Assembly (NCBI RefSeq): GCF_016863015.1
Contig: NZ_BOOB01000037.1
Coordinates: 62,001 to 126,000, forward strand
Direction of reading: 5' to 3'
Length of the DNA: 64,000 nucleotides
DNA from: Microbispora amethystogenes
GTDB taxonomy: Bacteria; Actinomycetota; Actinomycetes; Streptosporangiales; Streptosporangiaceae
Below are positions 162-37,793 of the stretch, in pieces (position 1 is the first letter of the stretch; every line of letters begins with the position of its first letter). The notes below the pieces were generated by a model. The model was not told the origin of the DNA and ran no database searches. It saw only the letters and a list, made by a program, of their open reading frames with translations. A program made the position numbers and the translations under genes.

Positions 162-886
162 TGTGGGGATATGTCCGGCTCGAACTGACCAGGACCCTCC
201 GCGACGGCGGCTATGTCATATTCGCTGTTGTGATGCCGGTCGTCATGTACGTCATCTTCACCAACCTCGGCCTGGCCCCCGGCGACCGGCACGACGCCGC
301 GATCTACGTGATGGTCAGCATGGCGGCGTACGGCGCGCTCGGCGGCGCGTTCAACAACGGCAGCGGCATCGCCGAGGACCGCGCGACCGGATGGCTGCGT
401 CAGTTACGGCTCACGCCGCTGACCCCCGTGCAGGTCGTCACGGGGAAGGTGCTGACCGGGGTCGTCGGCGTCGTGCCGAGCATCGCGGCCGTGCTGCTGG
501 CCGGCGTGCTGGTCAACCACGTCACGCTCCCGCCGCAGCGGTGGCTGGCGATCATCGTGCTGCTGTGGGCCGGGACCGTGCCGTTCTCCCTGCTCGGCCT
601 CGGTAACGGCTACCGCCTGTCCGGCCAGACGGCGGCGGTGGCCAACGTCGCGACCATGCTGACCCTGTCCATCGTCGGCGGCCTGTGGATACCGGCGGAG
701 ACGTTCCCCTCCTGGCTGCGCGCGATCGCCGACTGGACGCCGTCGAACAGCTACGCGGGCCTGTCCTGGCGGGTCGCGTTCGGCGACGCCCCCACCCTCC
801 GGCAGGCCGCGATCCTTGTGGCGTGGCTGCTCGTCTTCGCCGCCTACGCGATGTACGGCTACCGCCGCGCCGGGCGCCGGGCCTGA
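161..886 (+). CDS. ABC-2 type transporter permease
   Basis: Integral membrane subunit of a two-gene ABC exporter, about 241 aa with six predicted membrane segments (for example YVIFAVVMPVVMYVIFTNLG near the N-terminus and AAILVAWLLVFAAYAMYGY-like residues near the C-terminus). The region GIAEDRATGWLRQLRLTPLT is the cytoplasmic coupling segment typical of ABC-2 permeases (EREXGTLEQLLVTPL in relatives). The ATG at 161 overlaps the TGA of the upstream ATPase; GTG 158 is an alternative start. The histidine kinase and response regulator follow at once, an arrangement common for exporters induced by envelope stress or antibiotics. The substrate is unknown. Confidence 0.85.
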   Translation: MWGYVRLELTRTLRDGGYVIFAVVMPVVMYVIFTNLGLAPGDRHDAAIYVMVSMAAYGALGGAFNNGSGIAEDRATGWLRQLRLTPLTPVQVVTGKVLTGVVGVVPSIAAVLLAGVLVNHVTLPPQRWLAIIVLLWAGTVPFSLLGLGNGYRLSGQTAAVANVATMLTLSIVGGLWIPAETFPSWLRAIADWTPSNSYAGLSWRVAFGDAPTLRQAAILVAWLLVFAAYAMYGYRRAGRRA

Positions 887-4357: not shown

Positions 4358-5581
4358 GTGAGTGTCGCCCTTATCCAGCCCCTGGTGGTTCGCACGGTCG
4401 CGGTGAGCGACCCCGACGATCTCCTGGCGCGCCTGCCCGGCGCCGCGCCGTACGCGTGGATCAGGAACGGCGAGGGACTCGTGGGCTGGGGGGAGGCGGC
4501 GCGTGCGATGGTGCCTCCCGGCCCCGGACGGTTCGACTGGGCCCGCGGCTGGCTCTCCTCGCTGTTCACCGGCGCGCTCATCCGGGACGAGGTCGGCATG
4601 CCGGGCTCGGGCCCGGTGGCCTTCGGCTCCTTCACGTTCGACGCCGACGCCCCGGGGACCGTCCTGGTCGTCCCCCGCGTGGTGCTCGCCCGGCGGGACG
4701 GCCGCGCCTGGCTCACCACGATCGGCGACAACGCGTTCGACCTGGCCCGCCCTCCGGTGGAGCCCGGCCGCATCCGGTACGGCGACGGCACGCTGACGGC
4801 GCCCCAGTGGGAGCACCGGGTCGCGCGAGCGGTACGCCGCATCAGGGACGGCGGCCTCGACAAGGTGGTGCTCGCCCGTGACCTGACGGCCGTCGCCGAC
4901 CGGGAGATCGACATCCGCGTGCTGCTCGGGCGGCTCGCCCAAAGCTACCCCGAGTGCTACACGTTCTCCGTGGACGGCCTGGTCGGCGCGACCCCCGAAC
5001 TGCTGGTCCGGCACACCGGCCAGGCGGTGGAGTCACTGGTCCTGGCCGGCACCACGCCGCGCGGGTCGGGCCCGGCCGACGACGCCGCCCGCGCCGCCGC
5101 CCTGTACGCGTCGAAGAAGGACCGGCACGAGCACGCCTGCGCGGTCGCCTCGGTCCGTGAGGCCCTGGCCCCCCTGTGCTCGGCGTTGCACGTGCCCGAG
5201 GAGCCGGAACTGCTCGTGCTGCCCAACGTGCAGCACCTGGCGAGCCGGGTCACCGGGCGGCTGTCCGACGGCGCGTCGGTGCTCGACGTGGTCGCCGCCA
5301 TGCACCCCACGGCCGCCGTCGGCGGGACGCCCACCGGCACCGCCCTCGGTCTGATCCGCGAACTGGAGGGCATGGACCGCGGGGGCTACTCCGGCCCGGT
5401 CGGCTGGATCGACGCCCACGGCGACGGCGAGTGGGGCATCGCCCTGCGCTGCGCGTACATCTCCGGCAGGCACGCGCGGCTGTTCGCCGGCTGCGGCATC
5501 ATGGCCGGATCCGACCCGGCCACCGAACTCGCCGAGGCGCAGGCCAAGCTCCGCGTCATGCAGTACGCCCTGGAGGGGTGA
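4358..5581 (+). CDS. menF: Isochorismate synthase
   Basis: Converts chorismate to isochorismate, the first step of classical menaquinone synthesis; cytoplasmic, Mg-dependent, 407 aa. The chorismate-binding fold is clear: KVVLARDL, CYTFSVDGLVGATPELLVR, VLAGTTPRG, KDRHEHACAV, VQHLASRVTG, MHPTAAVGGTPT, GYSGPVGWIDAHGDGEWGIALR and the C-terminal AGCGIMAGSDPATELAEAQAK. The catalytic Lys lies in KVVLARD and the GGTP and E-rich motifs bind Mg. It starts at GTG 4358, leaderless. menD, menB and menE lie 7-11 kb away in the same window, so the quinone role is favoured over a siderophore EntC, though no siderophore genes were excluded outside the window. Confidence 0.88.
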   Translation: MSVALIQPLVVRTVAVSDPDDLLARLPGAAPYAWIRNGEGLVGWGEAARAMVPPGPGRFDWARGWLSSLFTGALIRDEVGMPGSGPVAFGSFTFDADAPGTVLVVPRVVLARRDGRAWLTTIGDNAFDLARPPVEPGRIRYGDGTLTAPQWEHRVARAVRRIRDGGLDKVVLARDLTAVADREIDIRVLLGRLAQSYPECYTFSVDGLVGATPELLVRHTGQAVESLVLAGTTPRGSGPADDAARAAALYASKKDRHEHACAVASVREALAPLCSALHVPEEPELLVLPNVQHLASRVTGRLSDGASVLDVVAAMHPTAAVGGTPTGTALGLIRELEGMDRGGYSGPVGWIDAHGDGEWGIALRCAYISGRHARLFAGCGIMAGSDPATELAEAQAKLRVMQYALEG

Positions 5582-5615
5582 GAGCCGCAGGGCCTCAGTT
5601 CGGCTCAGTGCGGCC

Positions 5616-6263
5616 TCAGCGGGCCAGGTGGACGGTCTCTCCGAGGGCCGTCTCGGCCCGCCCGGCGGTGACCGCCGCGACCCACTCCCCGAAGGCGGAC
5701 AGCCGGTCCTCGGCGACCGCCACCTCGAAGGCCACCCGCGCGCCGTGGCCGTCCCCGTCGTCGACGCTGTAGTCGACACCGCGCACCGCGTACGGCGAGG
5801 AGCGCAGATCGCTCTCCAGCCGCCCGGCCTGGGCGTGACCGACCGACACGGTCACAACCGCCGCGGGGACCATCTCGACGACCTCCGCCCTGTCAAGAGT
5901 CTCCCCCACGGCCCCGCCGTACGCGCGGGCGAGACCGCCGGCGCCCAGCAGCACCCCGCCGAAGTAGCGGGTGACGACCGCCACCACATCCGCGAATCCG
6001 CGCCGGGTGAGCATCTCCAGCATCGGCGTACCCGCCGTGCCGCCCGGCTCACCGTCGTCGTCCGCCCGGCGTACCCCTCCGCCGCCGATCACGTACGCCG
6101 TGCAGTTGTGGCTGGCGTCGGCGTACAGCCTCCTACGCCCCGCGACGAACTCGCGTGCCGCCTCCTCCGTGGCCACCGGAGCCAAGGCGCAGATGAAGCG
6201 CGAGCGGCGGATCTCGGTTTCATGCTCGACGACGTTTCCGATCGTCCGGTACGGCGCTGTCAC
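5616..6263 (-). CDS. yigZ: IMPACT/YigZ family protein
   Basis: 215 aa, matching the UPF0029/IMPACT family of ribosome-associated or translation-linked proteins whose biochemical role is still unsettled. The N-terminal domain carries the signature DDDGEPGGTAGTPMLEML and YFGGVLLGAGGLARAYGGAV; the C-terminal DUF1949-like domain covers about residues 140-205. The GTG start is preceded by TAGACT (6270-6275) at 6 nt, so it is probably leaderless. A 16-bp palindromic element identical to the one in front of the tetR-type gene at 18879 overlaps the -35 region. It is convergent with menF. Confidence 0.85.
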   Translation of the reverse strand: MTAPYRTIGNVVEHETEIRRSRFICALAPVATEEAAREFVAGRRRLYADASHNCTAYVIGGGGVRRADDDGEPGGTAGTPMLEMLTRRGFADVVAVVTRYFGGVLLGAGGLARAYGGAVGETLDRAEVVEMVPAAVVTVSVGHAQAGRLESDLRSSPYAVRGVDYSVDDGDGHGARVAFEVAVAEDRLSAFGEWVAAVTAGRAETALGETVHLAR

Positions 6264-24645: not shown

Positions 24646-24842
24646 GCGGTCTCCCCCTCTGTCATCGGACCTGAGAGCTTCACCGGGCCGCCGGGCCCGG
24701 CTTTCCCCTTCGGTGAGGCGCCGCCTGGCCGGCGGGCCTGCTTTTCAGAGTCGCCTCGTCCGTGCGGTACGGATGCCTGAGAGTTTCCGGGGAGGTTTGC
24801 TCCTTCGGCGCCCCTGCAACTTCAGGGGTCTCTCCCGCACGA
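24646..24842 (-). ncRNA. Tandem glycine riboswitch in the gcvP leader
   Basis: On the minus strand the 5' aptamer reads GCGGGAGAGACC, GCGCCGAAGGAGCAA, ACTCTCAGGCA; the 3' aptamer reads CACCGAAGGGGAAAGC, GAAGCTCTCAGGTCC, GACAGAGGGGGAGACC. The paired CGAAGGRGMAA and CTCTCAGG signatures, twice in about 200 nt, are diagnostic. It ends ~70 nt before the gcvP ATG. Glycine binding to such tandem elements usually turns on cleavage-system expression. Confidence 0.93.
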
Positions 24843-24892
24843 GGTCGTCGGCCGTGTCCACTCTACCCGGTTACTTCCGTTGTACCCGTTTC

Positions 24893-30729: not shown

Positions 30730-30739
30730 GCCCCAGACC

Positions 30740-30771
30740 CTACATGCCGGTATCCCGGCCGTTCCGCGGAG
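30740..30771. repeat. Direct repeat copy A bounding the RiPP cassette
   Basis: CTACATGCCGGTATCCCGGC continues for 12 more bases and matches 35452-35483 at 28 of 32 positions; all differences are transitions. It encodes the final PRNGRDTGM of the transporter. Confidence 0.75.
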
Positions 30772-32914
30772 CGGCGGCCCCGGCGGGGGCCGTCTGCGCG
30801 GCGACGAGCCGGGTGTAGCGCCCGCCCAGGGCCAGCAGCTCCTCGTGGGTGCCCCGCTCCACCACCGTGCCCCGCTCGACGACCAGGATCAGGTCGGCGT
30901 CCCGCACCGTGCTCAGCCGGTGCGCGATCACGATGCGGGTCTGCGTCAGGCGGGACAGCCGCGCCTCGATGCCGGCCTCGGTCGCGCTGTCCAGGTTGCT
31001 GGTCGCCTCGTCGAGCAGCAGCACCGTGGGGCGGGGCAGCAGCGCGCGGGCCAGGGCGAGGCGCTGGCGCTGCCCGCCCGACAGGCCGCCGCCCTCGACC
31101 AGGATCGTCTCGTAGCCCATCGGCATCGCCATGATCTCGTCGTGCAGGCCCGCGATCCGGGCCGCCTCGGCGATCCGGTCCAGGCCGGCCTCGGGGAGAT
31201 TGAGCGCGATGTTCTCCCGGATCGTCCCGGTGAACAGCGACGGCTCCTGGGTGACCACACCGAACTGGCGGCGCAGCGACCGCGGGTTGAGCTCGGCCGC
31301 GGGAACGCCGTCGTACCGGATCTCCCCGGCCGTCGGCCGGTACAGGGCGAGCAGGAGGCGGGCGAGCGTGCTCTTGCCCGACCCCGAGGGACCGACCAGC
31401 GCGACCTTCTGCCCCGGCCGCACGACCAGTGAGACGTCGCGCAGCGTCCACGCGCCGCGCGGGTCGTGGCGGAAACCCACCCCGCGCAGCTCGATGCCGC
31501 CGCGCAGCCGCAGCACCTCGATCCCCGTGGACGGCTCGGGCTCGGCGGCGAGGATGTCCGACAGCCGGTCGAAGTGCGCCCCGGCCTGCTGAAGGCTGCG
31601 CAGGCTGGTCATCAGCGAGCCGATCGGGGTGAGCGCGGCGGTGGCCAGGGCGTTCAGCGCGAGCAGCGTCCCGAGGCTCAGCGACCCGTCGAGCACCCGC
31701 CACGCGCCGACCCACAGGAGCCCCAGCGGCGCGAGATGGCGCACCGCCCCGAGCGCCGCCTCGATGAGCCCCCGGACGAGCCCTCCCCGCACGTCGGCGT
31801 CGAGTTGCCGGGCGAACAGGTCCGACCAGCGCCGCATCGCCCGCGGCTCGGCCCCGGACGCCTTGAGCGTCTCGATGCCGCCGACGGCCTCCATCAGGCG
31901 GCCCTGCGTGTCGGCGAGAGCGGCCAGCTCGCGCCTGGTCAGCTCGCCCACCCGGCGGGCGGTGCCGAGCAGGAGGGCGGCCTGCCCCGCGGCGAGCAGC
32001 GCGAGGAAGGCGCCGAAGACCGGGTCCCAGGCGAAGACGAGCAGCAGGTAGACGAGGGCGAGCGGCCCGTCGAGCAACGACGAGAGGATCTGCCCGGTCA
32101 GCGTCTCGCGCAGGGCCATGACGCTGTTCGATCGGTTCACCAGGTCCGCCTTGCCGCGCACCGCGAAGTACCGGTACGGCAGTGCGACGAGGTGCGACAC
32201 CAGATTCCGCGTCACCTCGCCGTCGGTGCGCGAACGGAGCGCGACGAGCAGCACCGAACGCAGGTAGCCCACCGCGAACTGGGTGACCACGGCGACCAGC
32301 ACGGCCACGCCGAGGAGCGCGAGGAGCCCGGAGTCCCCGCGTGGGAGGATCCGGTCGACGACGACCTGGAACGCCGTCGCGAGCCCCAGGCCGAGCACCT
32401 GGAGCAGCACCGACGCCGCGAGCACCTGGGCGAGCAGGCCCTTCCTGCGGAGCACCAGGGCGCGCAGGAAGTCGCGCCGCCACGCCCGCGCGGCGCCGGA
32501 CCGCACGCGGCGGAACCCCGGCTCCGGCTCGAACGCCAGCAGCACGCCGGTGAACCCGGCGTCGAACTCAGCGGGCGTGAGCCGCCTGCGTCCCTGGCCG
32601 GGGTCCATGATGTCCACGTGATCGGGGGTCCACCGCTCCACCACCACGAAGTGCTGGAACTCCCAGTGGACGATCGCGGGCATGGGCACCCGCCCGAGGT
32701 CGGCCGGCTCCAGCGAGAACGCCCTGGCCTTCAGGCCGAACTCCCGCGCGGCGCGGACGACGGCCAGCGCGCTCAGGCCGTCCCTGCCTACCTGGAGGTG
32801 GTCGGTGACCTCTTGGATGGTGGTGCGGTGGCCGTGGAAGGACAGGATCACGGCCAGGCAGGCCGCGCCGCACTCGGTCGCCGAGTTCTGCAGCAGGACC
32901 GGGACCCGTCTCAC
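30740..32914 (-). CDS. Peptidase-containing ABC transporter (C39 peptidase-TMD-NBD)
   Basis: 724 aa, the export and leader-cleavage protein of the RiPP cassette. The C39 domain (1-~130) has the catalytic Cys in LLQNSATECGAACLAVIL, His in VHWEFQHFVVVE and Asp in IMDPGQGRR, so it should cleave after Gly-Gly. Six membrane helices follow (~155-445). The ATPase domain has Walker A LVGPSGSGKSTLARLL, the signature LSGGQRQRLALARAL, Walker B TVLLLDEATSNLD and the H-loop IVIAHRLSTV. GTG 32914 overlaps the stop of the mini-HlyD gene (GTGA). Its last ten codons lie in a 32-bp direct repeat shared with the end of the response-regulator gene at 35452. Confidence 0.95.
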   Translation of the reverse strand: MRRVPVLLQNSATECGAACLAVILSFHGHRTTIQEVTDHLQVGRDGLSALAVVRAAREFGLKARAFSLEPADLGRVPMPAIVHWEFQHFVVVERWTPDHVDIMDPGQGRRRLTPAEFDAGFTGVLLAFEPEPGFRRVRSGAARAWRRDFLRALVLRRKGLLAQVLAASVLLQVLGLGLATAFQVVVDRILPRGDSGLLALLGVAVLVAVVTQFAVGYLRSVLLVALRSRTDGEVTRNLVSHLVALPYRYFAVRGKADLVNRSNSVMALRETLTGQILSSLLDGPLALVYLLLVFAWDPVFGAFLALLAAGQAALLLGTARRVGELTRRELAALADTQGRLMEAVGGIETLKASGAEPRAMRRWSDLFARQLDADVRGGLVRGLIEAALGAVRHLAPLGLLWVGAWRVLDGSLSLGTLLALNALATAALTPIGSLMTSLRSLQQAGAHFDRLSDILAAEPEPSTGIEVLRLRGGIELRGVGFRHDPRGAWTLRDVSLVVRPGQKVALVGPSGSGKSTLARLLLALYRPTAGEIRYDGVPAAELNPRSLRRQFGVVTQEPSLFTGTIRENIALNLPEAGLDRIAEAARIAGLHDEIMAMPMGYETILVEGGGLSGGQRQRLALARALLPRPTVLLLDEATSNLDSATEAGIEARLSRLTQTRIVIAHRLSTVRDADLILVVERGTVVERGTHEELLALGGRYTRLVAAQTAPAGAAAPRNGRDTGM

Positions 32915-33087
32915 CCGCCACCCCTCAGGACCAGAGCGGTGAGAACGGCCAGCCCCGAGGCGAGCACCGCGACCGCGCACCAGAGCAGGACGAGCGCACG
33001 GTCGCCGACCTCTTTCACAGCGGCCGGGGCGGACGGCGGGGCGGCATGGCGGCGCAGCGCCTCGGCGCGGAAGATCTGCCCGTTCAC
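32911..33087 (-). CDS. Small HlyD-anchor-like membrane protein of the RiPP cassette
   Basis: 58 aa. GTG 33087 overlaps the stop of the PpiC-like gene (GTGA), and its own TGA overlaps the GTG of the ABC transporter, so it is translationally coupled on both sides and very likely real. The start MNGQIFRAEALRRHAAPP matches the N-terminus of HlyD-type adaptor proteins from peptide export systems (FRxEALxRxxSP). One membrane helix follows (LLWCAVAVLASGLAVLTALVL), ending in RGGG. The periplasmic barrel and coiled-coil parts of HlyD are missing altogether. It may anchor or organise the exporter in a monoderm envelope. Confidence 0.75.
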   Translation of the reverse strand: MNGQIFRAEALRRHAAPPSAPAAVKEVGDRALVLLWCAVAVLASGLAVLTALVLRGGG

Positions 33088-34055
33088 CGCGTGCCGGTCC
33101 GCGCCGTGGTTCCCCAGAACCATTCGATCTTCGCGGCCCGGCGGCGTTCGTCGATCCACAGGTCGAAGACCCGCCGTTCGACGCGGCGGCGCGTGTCCGC
33201 GTCGAGCTCGGCGCCGGCCACGGAGATCACCTCGAGCAGGACGTCCGGGGCGGGCGAGACGACGTCGCCGGGGCGGGCGGTGCCGATCTCGGCCGCGGGC
33301 ACGTCCTCGACGACCAGCCGGGCGCCGCGCGTTCGCTCCGCCAGTGCGAAGAAGCCTGCTCCGGCGTCGATCTCGGCCGCCGCCCGCCGGGCCGCCTCGG
33401 AGCCGGGGAAGGTGAGCCGGGCGACCCGGGCCGTGCCGAACTCCTCCCGGTGCTCCTCGAAGTACGGCTCGACCCGTCCGGCCGTCACCCGCTCGCGGAC
33501 GCGGGCGACGGCCACCTCCCCCGCGACCAGCTCCCGGAGATCCACCGGGGTGAGGGAGCGGCGGTCCATCCACTCGCGCGTCCGTTCCACGGTGAGCAGC
33601 CCCCGGGCGCGCCGGAACGCGTCCACCGCCTCCTGGATCTCGTGGTCGGAGAGCTCGACCGGCGCCTCCTCCAGCTCCGCCTGGACGAGGGCGGCGGCGA
33701 CGATCCGGTCCACCAGCCGGGCCTCGTCCCACAGGAAGTCGAGCCGGGCGACCGCGTCGACCACCTTGACCCCGACTCCGTCGATCCGCAGCAGCAGCGT
33801 CTCGCCGGCTCGCTGCACGCCCCGCAGGGGCCAGGGCAGTGCGCGGTCGGGGCACCAGGACAGCGACACGGTCCCCTCCCCCGGCCGTCTGATCAGAAGG
33901 TCGTAGTGGAGCGAGTCGTCGTAGTCCTCCCGCTGCCACAGCAGCCGGAAGCGCACGCCGGGATGGCGCTCCCGCAACTCCCGCAGGCGCTCCCGGGCCT
34001 CGGACGGCTCGGCGCCGTCCAGGCCGCGGAGGGTTTCAAGGGCGTCGGGCAGCAT
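33084..34055 (-). CDS. PpiC/SurA-like peptide maturation system protein
   Basis: 323 aa, cytosolic (no signal peptide). The N-terminal ~115 residues hold an RQRED/LHYDLLIRRPGEGTVSLSWCPD segment; residues ~125-205 resemble the SurA chaperone helix bundle (LSDHEIQEAVDAFRRARGLLTVERTREWMDRRSLTPVDLRELV), and ~210-300 a degenerate PpiC parvulin domain (TARVARLTFP...GDVVSPAPDVLLEVISV). It matches the family I know as 'putative peptide maturation system protein', found next to ATP-grasp peptide ligases. It may hold the precursor or isomerise Pro in the core. GAGGAG precedes ATG 34055; it overlaps the ATP-grasp gene by 20 nt. Confidence 0.8.
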   Translation of the reverse strand: MLPDALETLRGLDGAEPSEARERLRELRERHPGVRFRLLWQREDYDDSLHYDLLIRRPGEGTVSLSWCPDRALPWPLRGVQRAGETLLLRIDGVGVKVVDAVARLDFLWDEARLVDRIVAAALVQAELEEAPVELSDHEIQEAVDAFRRARGLLTVERTREWMDRRSLTPVDLRELVAGEVAVARVRERVTAGRVEPYFEEHREEFGTARVARLTFPGSEAARRAAAEIDAGAGFFALAERTRGARLVVEDVPAAEIGTARPGDVVSPAPDVLLEVISVAGAELDADTRRRVERRVFDLWIDERRRAAKIEWFWGTTARTGTR

Positions 34056-35052
34056 GTGCGGTCTCCTCTCGGACCGTGCCGTACATCAACAGGTCACACA
34101 ACGCCGCGCCGATCGGCAGGCCGGTGGCCTTCTCGATCCAGAGCCACTGGCCACTGGGGTTGACTTCGAGGAAGACGTAGCGCCCGTCGGGGGTGAGGAT
34201 GAGATCGATCGCTCCGTAGCGCAGGCCGAGCCGCCGCACGATCCGCACGCAGCGCCCGGCCACCTCCGGCGGCAGCTCGTGCACCTCATGGCGGGTGCCG
34301 CCCGGGTCGTAACGGCGCCAGTCGAGCCTCGTGTGGTTGCTCTCCTGGGAGTGGATCTCCGCCGCGAAGACGGCCCGCCCCACGACGGTCACCCGGAGTT
34401 CGACCCGCTTGGGCACGTATTCCTGGGTGACGACCGGGCCGAACCTGATCGCGTCCGCGTACGTCACGTCCCGGGTGGACACCGGTTCCGACATCCGGGC
34501 CACGCCCTCCCCGTCCGCGCGGGACGTCGCGGGAACGCCCACGGGCTTGGTGATGACGCGGCCCCGGTGCCGGTTGTAGAAGTCCAGGAACTCGTCGGGG
34601 TCGTTGGTGATCAGCGTGTCCGGCAGCTCGAATCCGAGACGACCGGCCAGGACCAGCTGTGACGACTTGCGCTGGGCCAGCCTCACCCGTTCCCTGGGCG
34701 CGGGGACCATGCGGCAGTCGAGCTGCTCCCACAGGTCCCCGGCGAACACCGCGCACTCCTGCTCGATGTACGCGCGTGCCACCGGGTCGGCGATCTCGGG
34801 ATGCGCGACGGGAGCCTGGGGACGGCGGAACCACAACGCCGTCAGATGATCGAGATCGACGTCCGCCGTCTCCGTGCGCAGCCGCCGCCGCACCCGCCCG
34901 TCACGGTGGTAGACCGCGTCGAGCACCGCGCGGACCGGATAGCCGGCCGGGTCGAAGACGACCGGTTCCGCCCCCCGCGCGGCCAGCAGACGGGCCACGT
35001 GCTCCGCATGGGAGTCTCCGTCGATCGTGAGGATGAGTATTTCACCGGACAT
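34036..35052 (-). CDS. ATP-grasp RiPP maturase (graspetide synthetase-like)
   Basis: 338 aa, of the MvdD-type ATP-grasp group. The N-terminal domain (ILILTIDGDSHAEHVARLLAARG, LTALWFRRP) is typical for peptide-modifying members. The ATP-grasp core follows: RKSSQLVLAGRLGFELPDTLITNDP, RVITKPVG, VVTQEYVPKRVELRVTVVG, and the Mg/ATP-binding RYGAIDLILTPDGRYVFLEVNPSGQWLWIEKATGLPI. These enzymes activate Asp/Glu side chains as acyl phosphates and form ester or amide cross-links to Ser/Thr/Lys. The precursor gene lies 96 nt upstream with hairpins between. No R-E-L/LanM/cyclodehydratase genes are present. Confidence 0.9.
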   Translation of the reverse strand: MSGEILILTIDGDSHAEHVARLLAARGAEPVVFDPAGYPVRAVLDAVYHRDGRVRRRLRTETADVDLDHLTALWFRRPQAPVAHPEIADPVARAYIEQECAVFAGDLWEQLDCRMVPAPRERVRLAQRKSSQLVLAGRLGFELPDTLITNDPDEFLDFYNRHRGRVITKPVGVPATSRADGEGVARMSEPVSTRDVTYADAIRFGPVVTQEYVPKRVELRVTVVGRAVFAAEIHSQESNHTRLDWRRYDPGGTRHEVHELPPEVAGRCVRIVRRLGLRYGAIDLILTPDGRYVFLEVNPSGQWLWIEKATGLPIGAALCDLLMYGTVREETAHAARRP

Positions 35053-35080
35053 CTCTCGCCCTTTCTGGGGCTGTCTTCCT

Positions 35081-35128
35081 GATCGGGCTTCCCGATCGGG
35101 CGCGGGGCGCCGGAAGGGCGCCCCGCGC
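35081..35128 (-). terminator. Double hairpin between the precursor and maturase genes (attenuator)
   Basis: A 12-bp perfect stem (35100-35111 with 35117-35128, loop GGAAG) is followed on the minus strand by GATCGGG-CTT-CCCGATC (35081-35097). It lies after the precursor stop and before the ATP-grasp start, as expected for a partial terminator that keeps precursor mRNA in excess. Confidence 0.7.
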
Positions 35129-35148
35129 GCTCACTCGGAAGCGGTCGC

Positions 35149-35301
35149 TCAGAAGTCGAGGTCCTTGGCGTCGACGGTGCCGTCCGGGGTCATGACCTGG
35201 CTCGACCACTCGAACTTCCGGCCGCCGTTGACGAGGCGGAGGTCTCCCTCGTCGAGCTCCGGCCCGGCCGCCGCGATGTCGTCGATTCTGATCCTGTCCA
35301 T
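35149..35301 (-). CDS. RiPP precursor peptide with double-glycine leader
   Basis: 50 aa: leader MDRIRIDDIAAAGPELDEGD plus LRLVNGG, then a 23-residue core beginning RKFEWSSQVMTPDG and ending VDAKDLDF. The GG at 26-27, preceded by the LxLVxGG pattern, is the site expected for the C39 peptidase encoded at 30740. The core has one Glu and four Asp, against two Ser, two Thr and two Lys, which are donor and acceptor residues for ATP-grasp ester or amide links. GGGAGGG lies 6 nt before ATG 35301. The gene heads the maturase-export operon. I do not recognise the core from any described graspetide. Confidence 0.85.
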   Translation of the reverse strand: MDRIRIDDIAAAGPELDEGDLRLVNGGRKFEWSSQVMTPDGTVDAKDLDF

Positions 35302-35379: not shown

Positions 35380-35451
35380 GGAGGGCCTTCTCGACACCCG
35401 CTTCTCACGGCCTTGGGAGCGGCTAAACAACCGCTTGGGGCCGGGCCCTTC

Positions 35452-35483
35452 CTACACGCCGGCGTCCCGGCCGTTCCGTGGAG
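35452..35483. repeat. Direct repeat copy B at the end of the response-regulator gene
   Basis: Partner of 30740-30771 (28 of 32 bases identical). It encodes the terminal PRNGRDAGV of the response regulator. Confidence 0.75.
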
Positions 35484-36141
35484 GCGTCACAGGGGTGAAG
35501 GCGGCGTCCACCAACCCGAAGCGGTGCGCCATCACCGCCGCCTGCGTGCGGTTGCGCAGGTCCAGCTTCTCGATCAGCGCTGCGACGTGGCTCTTCACGG
35601 TCGTGACGCCCACGTGCAGCCGCCCGGCGATCTCCGCGTTGGACAGGCCCACGCCGATCAGCGTCAGCACCTGCGCCTCGCGCTCGGTCAGGGCCGCGGG
35701 CGGCGGCAGCGTCTGCCGTTCGGCGGCCAGGGCCCGCTCGACGACCCGCCGCAGCACCGACGGGGCGAGCGGGGGCTCTCCCGCCGCGGCCCGCCGCACG
35801 GCCTCGACCATGTGGGCGGGCGGGTCGTCCTTGACCAGGAACCCGAGCGCGCCCGCGCCCAGCGCGGCGTAGAGGTTCTCGTCCTCGGCGAACGTGGTGA
35901 GCACGACGATCCGGGCGGACGGCCGGGCGGCGAGGATCCTGCGGGTGGCCTCCAGCCCGTCCACGCGCGGCATGCGCAGGTCCATCAGCACGACGTCGGG
36001 ACGGTGCCGCTCGTCCAGCCGTACGGCCTCGGCGCCGTCGGCGGCCTCGCCGCACACCTCCATGTCCCCGGCCGCCTCCAGCATCATGCGGACGCCGGCC
36101 CGTACGAGGGCCTGGTCGTCGGCGACGACGACGCGGATCAC
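35452..36141 (-). CDS. LuxR/NarL-family response regulator
   Basis: 229 aa. Receiver domain with VVVADDQALVR, the phospho-acceptor in VVLMDLRMPRVDG, Thr in VLTTFA and Lys in FLVKDD; LuxR domain ALTEREAQVLTLIGVGLSNAEIAGRLHVGVTTVKSHVAALIEKL. GTG 36141 overlaps the stop of its kinase (GTGA). The RiPP precursor promoter lies 70 bp downstream, so it is the nearest candidate to control that cassette. The C-terminal TPPRNGRDAGV extension goes beyond the domain and is shared with the ABC transporter's tail. Confidence 0.9.
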   Translation of the reverse strand: MIRVVVADDQALVRAGVRMMLEAAGDMEVCGEAADGAEAVRLDERHRPDVVLMDLRMPRVDGLEATRRILAARPSARIVVLTTFAEDENLYAALGAGALGFLVKDDPPAHMVEAVRRAAAGEPPLAPSVLRRVVERALAAERQTLPPPAALTEREAQVLTLIGVGLSNAEIAGRLHVGVTTVKSHVAALIEKLDLRNRTQAAVMAHRFGLVDAAFTPVTPPRNGRDAGV

Positions 36142-37793
36142 GCGAGTCTCCCCCTCATGTGGCAGTCGGGCGGGCTCTCGCACGCGCCCTCGGGCGGGAT
36201 GGGCAGCGAGGCGGTCAGCCGCCACCCGCCGTCCCCGGCCGGGCCGGCGGTGACGCGCCCCCCGAAGGCGCGGGCCCGTTCCCGCATGCCGGCGATGCCC
36301 TGGCCGTGGGACGGCAGCGCCTCCGGCGGGCGGGCCGGGCCCGGGCCGTTGCGCACCTCCACCACCAGCGCGCCCTCGCGCGTCCGCACGCCGACCTCGG
36401 CGCGGGCGCCGGGCCCCGCGTGTTTCAGCACGTTGGTGAGCCCCTCCTGGACGATCCTGGCCGCCGCCGCGCGCAGCACCAGCGGGGCCAGGCCCGCCTC
36501 GGGCGACTGCCGCAGGTCCACGTGCAGGCCCGCCGCCGACATCCGCGCCACCGCGTCCCGCAGCACGTCGCCGGGGTCGGCGAGCATGTCCGCGAGCGGG
36601 AGGTCGTCGCGCAGCGCCTCGGCGGGATCGCGCAGCACGGTGAGCAGGCCGCGCAGGTCCTCCAGGACGCGGTGCCCGGTCTCCCGGATGTCGGCCAGCG
36701 CCTCGGCGGCCGGGCCGTCCGCCCCGGCGTACTGGGCCGCGCTCGCCCGCAGGACCATCGCCCCGACGTGGTGGGCCACGATGTCGTGGACCTCGCGGGC
36801 GATCCGCTCCCGCTCGGCCAGCCGCCCGGCCCTGGCCCGCTCGGCGGCCAGTTCGGCCGCGTGCCGGGCCTGCGCCTGCCGCGCGCCGACGTACCGGCCG
36901 ATCGCCACCGGTGCGGTCACCATCGTCATCAGCGCCACGACCCGGAACGGGGTGACGTCGGCGGGGTCGTCCACGGTCACGAGGGCGGAGACCGAGCAGG
37001 TCAGCGCGTACGCCGCGGCGAGCCACGGCCAGGCGGCGCGGGTCGCGAACACGCCGAGGGCCACGAGAGCGAGCAGTTGCAGGCTGTTGCCGGTCCTCGG
37101 GACGTACTGGTCGGCGGTGACCAGCGTCAGGCTCTCCAGCAGCAGGACCGCGCCGGGCAGGTGCCGCACGACGCCCAGCGCGAGCCCCGCGAGCATCACC
37201 CCGAGCGCGACCGCCCACACCGGGGGCACCCCGCTGTGCCAGTAGGGCCAGGTGGTGAGCACCGCCAGTGCCACCCCGCCGCCGGCGAGGAGGAGGTCGA
37301 GCAGCGGGGCCGGGTCCTCCCGGCGCCGCCCCGCCTGCGTGCGGAGATAGCCGCCGATCAGCACCGGGGCGGCGATCAGGCCGGCCGAGTAGAACCAGGT
37401 GTTCGCGGTGAGCGCGATGCCGGGGTCGGCGAGGTTCACGGCCGTCGCGGCGACGGCGAGCACGGCCACCGGCGCCGTCCAGCGCCAGGAGTGCCCCCGG
37501 GCCAGCACGCCGACGGCGATGGGCAGCAGGATCTGGACGGTGTTGACGGTGAACGCGCCGACCTGGTCGCAGGCCACCAGCAGCGCGGCCAGGTAGACGG
37601 CCACCGGGCCGGGCCATCGGCGCACCAGCCCCATCGGCAGCCCGGCCAGCAGCGCGAGCCCCAGCCCCACCCACACCGGGGCCGGGCCGTTGCCGCCCGT
37701 CCAGGATCCCGCGCTGACCAGCACGTCGAGGCCGGTCCCGCTCACCGCGAGGAAGACGTCGAGAACCGGGCCACGTGAGAAGGGCCGCCGCAT
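36138..37793 (-). CDS. Sensor histidine kinase (NarL/DesK type)
   Basis: 551 aa. The N-terminal ~330 residues carry about ten hydrophobic segments in two blocks, more than the usual four to six. HisKA_3 follows, with His in ERERIAREVHDIVAHHVGAMV (about residue 345), then HATPase_c with RIVQEGLTNVLKHAG and SHGQGIAGMRERARAFGG. ATG 37793 follows TAGCGT (37800-37805) by 6 nt, so it is leaderless. It forms an operon with the response regulator. Signal unknown; proximity suggests a link to the RiPP cassette. Confidence 0.88.
   Translation of the reverse strand: MRRPFSRGPVLDVFLAVSGTGLDVLVSAGSWTGGNGPAPVWVGLGLALLAGLPMGLVRRWPGPVAVYLAALLVACDQVGAFTVNTVQILLPIAVGVLARGHSWRWTAPVAVLAVAATAVNLADPGIALTANTWFYSAGLIAAPVLIGGYLRTQAGRRREDPAPLLDLLLAGGGVALAVLTTWPYWHSGVPPVWAVALGVMLAGLALGVVRHLPGAVLLLESLTLVTADQYVPRTGNSLQLLALVALGVFATRAAWPWLAAAYALTCSVSALVTVDDPADVTPFRVVALMTMVTAPVAIGRYVGARQAQARHAAELAAERARAGRLAERERIAREVHDIVAHHVGAMVLRASAAQYAGADGPAAEALADIRETGHRVLEDLRGLLTVLRDPAEALRDDLPLADMLADPGDVLRDAVARMSAAGLHVDLRQSPEAGLAPLVLRAAAARIVQEGLTNVLKHAGPGARAEVGVRTREGALVVEVRNGPGPARPPEALPSHGQGIAGMRERARAFGGRVTAGPAGDGGWRLTASLPIPPEGACESPPDCHMRGRLA

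Follow-up and report, generated by a model that had tools for sequence, protein, structure and literature searches.

What do five tightly packed genes of a Microbispora genome make, and what does a protein resembling a prolyl isomerase do among them? The genes lie in a 64,000-nucleotide (nt) stretch of the Microbispora amethystogenes assembly GCF_016863015.1 (contig NZ_BOOB01000037.1, positions 62,001 to 126,000 of the forward strand), referred to here in its full length as the window. The original prediction, made from the letters of the DNA alone, described a cassette for a graspetide, a ribosomally synthesized and posttranslationally modified peptide (RiPP), with a Gly-Gly leader precursor, an ATP-grasp ligase, a PpiC-like protein, a small HlyD-anchor-like protein, and a C39-peptidase ATP-binding cassette (ABC) exporter. 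All five minus-strand open reading frames (ORFs) are present where they had been placed (Table 1). The cassette is real and is more than a chance arrangement, because the same arrangement is repeated across many related genomes. It is probably a complete biosynthetic cassette, and the likely task of its five genes is the synthesis, folding, and export of a small peptide tied into rings. With a probability of about 0.8, this product is a graspetide of the type of rosaritide, which belongs to group 21.

Affiliation of the cassette

Rosaritide, a group 21 graspetide of Micromonospora rosaria, is encoded by mirABCD, with MirB belonging to TIGR04187, MirC to TIGR04500, and MirD to TIGR03796 (PMC13097080, ACS Chem Biol, March 2026). 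Its links, S8-D22, S9-D26, and T11-D24, are macrolactones, all of them esters. MirB activity requires MirC with both of its domains, and the two proteins copurify as an active complex; a chaperone role for MirC has been proposed by the authors (PMC13097080). Both prolines tested in rosaritide are trans, and the peptide without its first three core residues inhibited the growth of none of four test bacteria (PMC13097080). That report is the first account of partner-dependent graspetide synthesis and contains one PpiC-type example. TIGR04500 has also been listed as a family associated with ATP-grasp loci, with 40 occurrences (PMC8939145).

Family assignments were made with NCBIfam and Pfam. The partner is the sole cassette protein to exceed its curated NCBIfam cut-off (TIGR04500, 319.8 bits versus 180). 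The best NCBIfam matches of the synthetase and the exporter are TIGR04187 and TIGR03796, respectively, which completes the MirB-MirC-MirD set and bears out the graspetide call. The PpiC-like protein had been considered not standard in characterized graspetide systems; with MirC as a characterized partner, that view is out of date, and the idea that the cassette has no relative in characterized systems is ruled out by the TIGR04500 match and by the rosaritide paper (PMC13097080).

TIGR04500 proteins above the cut-off are found in 77 of 341 genomes of the family to which the window belongs and in 6 of 300 genomes of a second family, probably Micromonosporaceae, judging from the precursors; a draw of 394 genomes from the class of the window yielded 14, of which 13 belong to the same family as the window. 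The comparison covers 110 loci, numbered with the letter L: 100 stretches picked from the matches in the window's family (not all were taken, and some genomes contribute more than one locus), eight from the second family, the window, and L004. A partner match is present in all 110, exceeding 150 bits in 109, with profiles built from these same loci. An ATP-grasp match accompanies the partner in 103 of the 109 and is lacking in 6. The original prediction had hinged on homologs of the two genes having a Gly-Gly peptide nearby, and a credible leader peptide is indeed encoded upstream in 94 of the 103 loci (85 detected by profile and 9 by eye).

The ATP-grasp ligases 5ig8, 7m4s, and 5ig9 can be aligned with almost the whole window synthetase, which keeps the D-W-R motif. 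A D[WFY]R motif is found in 100 of the 103 ATP-grasp loci; it is missing from L096, L098, and L102, the last of which is counted among the 103 although its match spans only 52 residues. Seven second-family loci with a full ATP-grasp protein encode synthetases that are 49 to 52% identical to that of the window, with BLAST E values of 1e-90 to 1e-95 (at a self-set database size and with MirB itself outside the comparison). A group 21 synthetase would share the network cluster of that group at an alignment score of 70. Four loci of that family, L188, L189, L190, and L193, encode rosaritide-like cores LPR[NP]GAGSSKTIDDIPGGGRPDTDTDF, which contain ...GSSKTIDDIPGGGRPDTDTDF and have the published rosaritide residues at every comparable number except for Thr in place of Ser at position 25.

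Several observations weigh against this assignment. The scores of the synthetase (246.9 bits; cut-off, 350) and the exporter (611 bits; cut-off, 853.3) fall below the cut-offs, and that of the precursor (31.6 bits for TIGR04497, "putative ATP-grasp target RiPP"; cut-off, 32) falls just short. The residue kinds in the window core are like those of rosaritide, but the spacing is SS-x3-T and D-x2-D-x-D instead of SS-x-T and D-x-D-x-D. Because of this difference, rosaritide does not give the ring connectivity, and T15, D13, and E4 of the window core could be further ring participants. No precursor was accepted in 9 of the 103 loci, L061, L091, L096, L098, L102, L109, L124, L191, and L192, of which L096, L098, and L102 form the group without the D[WFY]R motif.

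Precursors and predicted rings

The precursor consists of a 27-residue leader (35221-35301) ending in ...ELDEGDLRLVNGG and a 23-residue core, RKFEWSSQVMTPDGTVDAKDLDF (35152-35220). The leader (...LRLVNGG), together with the TIGR04497 score, upholds the proposed Gly-Gly precursor. A Ser or Thr occupies core positions 6, 7, and 11 in all six Microbispora loci and in L086 and L104, and all of these loci also keep a C-terminal Asp cluster; L066 and L077 have lost both core Lys residues. This pattern, read alongside rosaritide, points to three ester links, so that the predicted product would carry three macrolactones (-54 Da). Between the window precursor and those of L066 and L077, amino acid changes outnumber silent ones, although the changes are few.

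The rings might instead be lactams closed through Lys2 or Lys19, or there might be a single ring, giving a product unlike rosaritide. K2 and K19 are possible amine donors, the core spacing differs from that of rosaritide, and 26 of 115 cores in the family have just one acidic residue. Lactams are nevertheless difficult to reconcile with L066 and L077, where S6, S7, and S11 persist without either Lys, and with rosaritide, where every link is an ester (PMC13097080). We consider this alternative quite unlikely and favor the three macrolactones.

Across the family, the number of acidic residues per core (115 precursors from 94 loci) is 1 in 26 precursors, 2 in 19, 3 in 32, 4 in 18, 5 in 15, 6 in 4, and at least 7 in 1; these counts depend on the chosen Gly-Gly cut, and related species are not independent. 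A core with one acidic residue can form at most one ring. The 26 single-acid cores, from 26 loci, are of two kinds: a VSW...EW type, such as RWSVSWYIGGKPAEWVNS, which occurs in L057, L060, and their relatives, and cores similar to AKSQVIVIHGGHTHTSGDSN (AKSQV...SGDSN), which occur in L026 to L039 and their relatives. By their sequences, these PpiC-partnered cassettes are candidates for one-ring graspetides. Cys residues are present in the cores of 60 precursors from 40 loci.

The TIGR04500 partner

In the AlphaFold2 model of the partner (14 sequences; pLDDT, 76.3; pTM, 0.56), which is weak over residues 41 to 120, residues 208 to 281 follow a β-α-α-β-α-β-β order. Foldseek searches with this model list Cj1289 (3rgc) as the best match, followed by SurA and other SurA- and PrsA-type proteins, all with low TM-scores (0.23 to 0.37 by query and 0.27 to 0.45 by target for the 16 best matches). 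Cj1289 is also a structural neighbor reported for MirC (PMC13097080). Profile searches retrieve SurA (E = 0.0014) and PrsA (4wo7; E = 0.0053). The PrsA alignment extends to residue 284, and residues 208 to 281 therefore look like a degenerate parvulin domain. In this the window partner differs slightly from MirC, for which the rosaritide paper notes no likeness to the peptidyl-prolyl isomerase (PPIase) domain of Cj1289 (PMC13097080).

Conservation within the family speaks against catalysis. The His of the first parvulin strand is absent from 108 of 109 homologs. L104 and L194 lack the parvulin-like region cleanly and in frame (L194 also lacks part of the last helix) and retain the N-domain, the helices, the synthetase, the precursor, and the exporter. 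This region is unlikely to be a working part of the partner, since it is missing in two cassettes from different families. Together, the missing first-strand His in the family and the absence of the region from two otherwise normal cassettes suggest that the partner works, in all probability, as a chaperone or clamp and not as a prolyl isomerase. On the other side, a His in or just before the last strand, at one of the positions that we take to be those of the catalytic His residues of parvulin domains, is found in 26 of the 109 homologs, the window not among them.

A working isomerase would act on Pro12 of the core and set its conformation either before the rings are closed or afterward. The family name, PpiC_rel_mature, the parvulin-like order of elements in the model, and the weak PrsA profile match would suit such a role. 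It is contradicted by the missing His, by the intact precursor, synthetase, and exporter of L104 and L194, and by rosaritide, where ring formation itself depends on MirC and the two prolines tested are trans (PMC13097080). This makes an isomerase very unlikely.

In 84 loci, the distances between ATP-grasp proteins correlate with those of the partner N-domain (r = 0.90) and C-domain (r = 0.93) and less with those of the exporter (r = 0.64). All of these values include common ancestry, which limits what they say in favor of a complex; seen in one set of loci, the difference is consistent with a stable complex of synthetase and partner and an exchangeable exporter. A weak resemblance to a RiPP recognition element (RRE) has been reported for MirC (PMC13097080). 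None of the 50 Foldseek matches listed for the window partner is RRE-like, and the model is weak in the N-domain region, so that an RRE nature of this domain is not confirmed. No signal peptide is apparent by eye in the window partner.

The 58-residue protein and the exporter

The exporter contains C39 (32522-32905), ABC_membrane, and ABC_tran domains in Pfam, as had been predicted, and its residues 8 to 703 match PCAT1 (4ry2). The 58-residue ORF that precedes it has no NCBIfam or Pfam match. Its identification as a small HlyD-anchor-like protein is corroborated by hhalign, which aligns it at 85% probability with the N-terminal ends of HlyD-like proteins from the same family that are of full length. 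The same relationship is weak in hmmsearch (E = 0.0075 to 0.035, filters off), and the comparison set itself lies below the TIGR03794 cut-off, with none of 41 genomes passing.

The 58-residue gene is detected by profile in 45 of the 110 loci, in all 45 directly before the exporter and on the same strand, with a gap of -1 to 475 nt. The figure of 45 is a lower bound, as diverged copies in L086 and L104, the window's neighbors, are missed by the profile and visible by eye. A search of 338 genomes of the window's family gave 58 matches, spread over 55 genomes. Thirteen of these loci were fetched, picked mainly because no partner match above the cut-off was listed nearby. Of these, L230 turned out to hold a normal cassette, and the contig of L231 is short and has no complete exporter gene. 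In the remaining 11, the gene stands directly before a C39 exporter, with no partner match in the stretch. From these 45 and 11 loci, it is concluded that the 58-residue protein belongs to the exporter. L219 and L227 have partial ATP-grasp matches, and L226 has a weak precursor match. In L220 to L226, L228, and L229, the 58-residue gene and a C39 exporter gene form a free-standing pair, and the stretch shows neither a partner nor an ATP-grasp match; such pairs could export the peptides of exporter-less cassettes elsewhere in the genome.

The ORF might also be what is left of a decaying HlyD gene, or an accidental coding stretch that has no function. It lacks a profile match in the databases, and its ratio of nonsynonymous to synonymous substitution rates between Microbispora species (0.31 to 1.00) is based on too small a number of changes to settle the matter. 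Of the 88 exporter matches, some of them fragments and 84 exceeding 500 bits, 43 (39 exceeding 500 bits) lack a profile-detected copy. This explanation is unlikely, given the constant length and position of the gene over many genera, in the diverged copies as well as the profile-detected ones, its invariable place before the exporter even in the 11 partner-less loci, and its presence in 55 genomes. We therefore retain its assignment to the exporter, with one reservation. In the rosaritide-type loci L188, L190, and L194, only 36 to 90 nt separate the partner and exporter matches and the ORF is truly absent, so that some exporters of this kind can do without it.

Gene layout and the spacer hairpin

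The predicted overlaps of 20 nt between synthetase and partner (34036-34055), 4 nt between partner and 58-residue ORF (33084-33087), and 4 nt between that ORF and the exporter (32911-32914) are as described. The proposed single cotranslated unit holds for the four genes from synthetase to exporter. It does not extend to the precursor gene, which overlaps none of them and is separated from the synthetase gene by a 96-nt spacer with a hairpin, leaving only four genes translationally coupled.

A 99-nt stretch with this hairpin has a predicted folding energy of -53.7 kcal/mol (z = -4.42; 200 dinucleotide shuffles). The nine relatives looked at, among them L041 and L188 with different sequences, likewise have a strong predicted hairpin. 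The spacer has z < -2 in 59 of the 83 loci where it is measurable, including the window, with mononucleotide shuffles as the weaker control. There is no U-run at the hairpin, which is probably a read-through hairpin favoring the precursor over the enzyme and so would set their ratio.

Table 1. Features of the cassette and its edges
Feature	Position	Strand	Evidence
Flank repeat 1, 3' end of response-regulator gene (35452-36141), upstream insertion edge	35451..35478	-	Pattern twice in window, twice in 8.13-Mb genome
Precursor peptide, 50 aa (amino acids)	35149..35301	-	ORF; TIGR04497, 31.6 bits; homologous leaders in relatives
12-bp G+C-rich hairpin, precursor/synthetase spacer	35100..35128	-	Folding z-score
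ATP-grasp graspetide synthetase, 338 aa	34036..35052	-	TIGR04187 below cut-off; end-to-end 5ig8/7m4s/5ig9 match; D-W-R motif
TIGR04500 partner, 323 aa	33084..34055	-	TIGR04500, 319.8 bits; model; best Foldseek matches Cj1289 (3rgc), SurA, PrsA
Partner N-domain	Residues 1-97		
Partner SurA-like helical part	Residues 111-206, 286-307		
Degenerate parvulin-like region, partner residues 208-281	33213..33434	-	Element order in model; PrsA profile match; His columns
58-aa HlyD-anchor-like membrane protein	32911..33087	-	Conserved family; position before exporter; hhalign
C39-peptidase ABC exporter, 724 aa	30740..32914	-	Pfam domains; PCAT1 (4ry2) match
Flank repeat 2, truncated response-regulator 3' end (present 3' end of exporter gene), downstream insertion edge	30739..30766	-	

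Insertion site and surroundings

The cassette has been inserted as a discrete unit at a fixed site. This site is empty in 9 of 15 genomes of the genus, where a response-regulator gene is followed directly by a gene for a CDP-alcohol phosphatidyltransferase; in the other 6, the cassette lies between the two. In five of the six cassette genomes, the exporter gene ends in, or is followed by, a copy of the response-regulator 3' end that is truncated on its 5' side. The copy covers nt 284 to 362 and 583 to 690 of the gene in L077, 555 to 690 in L064, and about 656 to 690 in the window, L073, and L080; no such copy reached the threshold in L066. The intact gene upstream and the truncated copy downstream point to gain by insertion, for example, if a circle with a segment of the regulator gene integrated by single crossover. 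The insert comprises the five genes and no other evident gene, and thus no dedicated regulator or immunity gene is visible.

The 28-bp flank pattern, with up to 3 mismatches allowed, has its two copies in the window and none elsewhere in the 8.13-Mb genome; we rejected a dispersed promoter-like element, as the repeat is a remnant of the response-regulator 3' end. The upstream two-component genes (35452-37793) find no support as cassette regulators, the response-regulator gene being present at the empty site in nine genomes as well (the kinase gene was outside this check). The window also contains a glycine riboswitch aptamer (24755-24847, minus strand; 68 bits, gathering score 32) and no tRNA genes in its 64 kb.

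Other TIGR04500 loci

A second, paralogous cassette, L004, is found in the same genome as the window (contig C40, 3795-13749). It encodes two precursors, an ATP-grasp protein 54% identical to that of the window, a TIGR04500 partner, and a C39 exporter on the opposite strand. This cassette adjoins genes for DpgA, DpgB, and DpgC (over their NCBIfam cut-offs) and for a CmlS-like flavin halogenase (below the cut-off). The same neighbors flank the cassette in genome G077 (L092/L216); next to its counterpart in G078 (L082/L217), they were not detected. A hybrid pathway of these genes and the cassette is one possible reading of the neighborhood.

Among the six loci without an ATP-grasp match, L087, L094, and L097 encode a full-length partner, and L106, L107, and L108 largely its C-domain only. 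L106, in the window's own genome (contig C20, about 4737-5840), and L087, L094, L096 to L098, L102, L107, and L108 encode TIGR04500-like proteins without an accepted precursor, some of them without an ATP-grasp protein or the N-domain. Several ATP-grasp-less or precursor-less loci are near an ORF that, judged from translations, resembles a 2-oxo acid dehydrogenase subunit. These proteins are possibly remnants, or partners with another job.

Proposed mechanism and implications

In the proposed mechanism, the synthetase and the TIGR04500 partner would form a complex of two proteins that holds the precursor leader. The synthetase would phosphorylate side-chain carboxylates of the C-terminal Asp cluster, most likely D17, D20, and D22, and the hydroxyls of S6, S7, and T11 would attack the activated carboxylates, yielding the three macrolactones, and the partner would act as a chaperone that holds both substrate and enzyme. 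The C39 domain would then cut after Gly-Gly and the transporter would export the core, with the 58-residue protein as a putative minimal accessory subunit. We infer the partner dependence and the ester linkages by analogy with rosaritide, and we can only infer the pairing of the ring residues and the job of the 58-residue protein.

More broadly, and tentatively, TIGR04500 might be a general cytosolic clamp for graspetide synthetases, built from the N-domain and SurA-type helices and serving cores with several rings down to one, with export by an exchangeable module, made of a C39 ABC transporter and a new minimal 58-residue HlyD-type subunit, that also exists as a free-standing pair of genes. 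Among the titles and abstracts listed from the open-licence literature, there was no other description of a short HlyD-like export partner or of single-ring or partner-dependent graspetides, and rosaritide itself turned up in a single paper (PMC13097080). The accessible portions of the literature gave no account of cassettes that have naturally lost the PPIase-like region, of an exporter-bound 58-residue protein, of the insertion site, or of single-acid cores.

The natural loss in L104 and L194 makes the need for the PPIase region simple to test, and so does, for the role of the 58-residue protein, its tracking of the exporter and not of the modifying enzymes. With cores that allow anything from one ring to several, the relatives lend themselves to mapping the link choice of the synthetase and its partner.

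Comparison with known systems

The closest known system is that of rosaritide. The window shares with mirABCD a C39-type cut site in the precursor, a TIGR04187-type synthetase, a TIGR04500 partner, and a TIGR03796-type exporter, as well as Ser-Ser and Thr donors and a C-terminal Asp cluster. It differs in the core spacing, in the extra 58-residue HlyD-like gene, and in a synthetase about 50% identical to those of rosaritide-like loci (MirB itself being outside the comparison). Microviridin-type ligases (5ig8, 7m4s, and 5ig9, of which we take 5ig8 and 5ig9 to be microviridin enzymes) have the same whole-length fold and D-W-R motif, whereas the window cassette has Gly-Gly/C39 export logic and another core pattern. 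To our knowledge, no partner protein has been described for ligases of the microviridin type.

The partner shares with the SurA, Cj1289, and PrsA chaperones the helical chaperone part and the parvulin-domain remnant. It differs from them in its additional N-domain, in a parvulin region that is degenerate or, elsewhere in the family, absent, and in the coupling of its gene to that of the synthetase. The 58-residue protein, in turn, has the N-terminal [FY]R..A[LM].R segment and single membrane helix of HlyD and NHLM-type membrane-fusion proteins (TIGR03794), but it consists of this anchor-like segment only, the whole extracytoplasmic part being missing.

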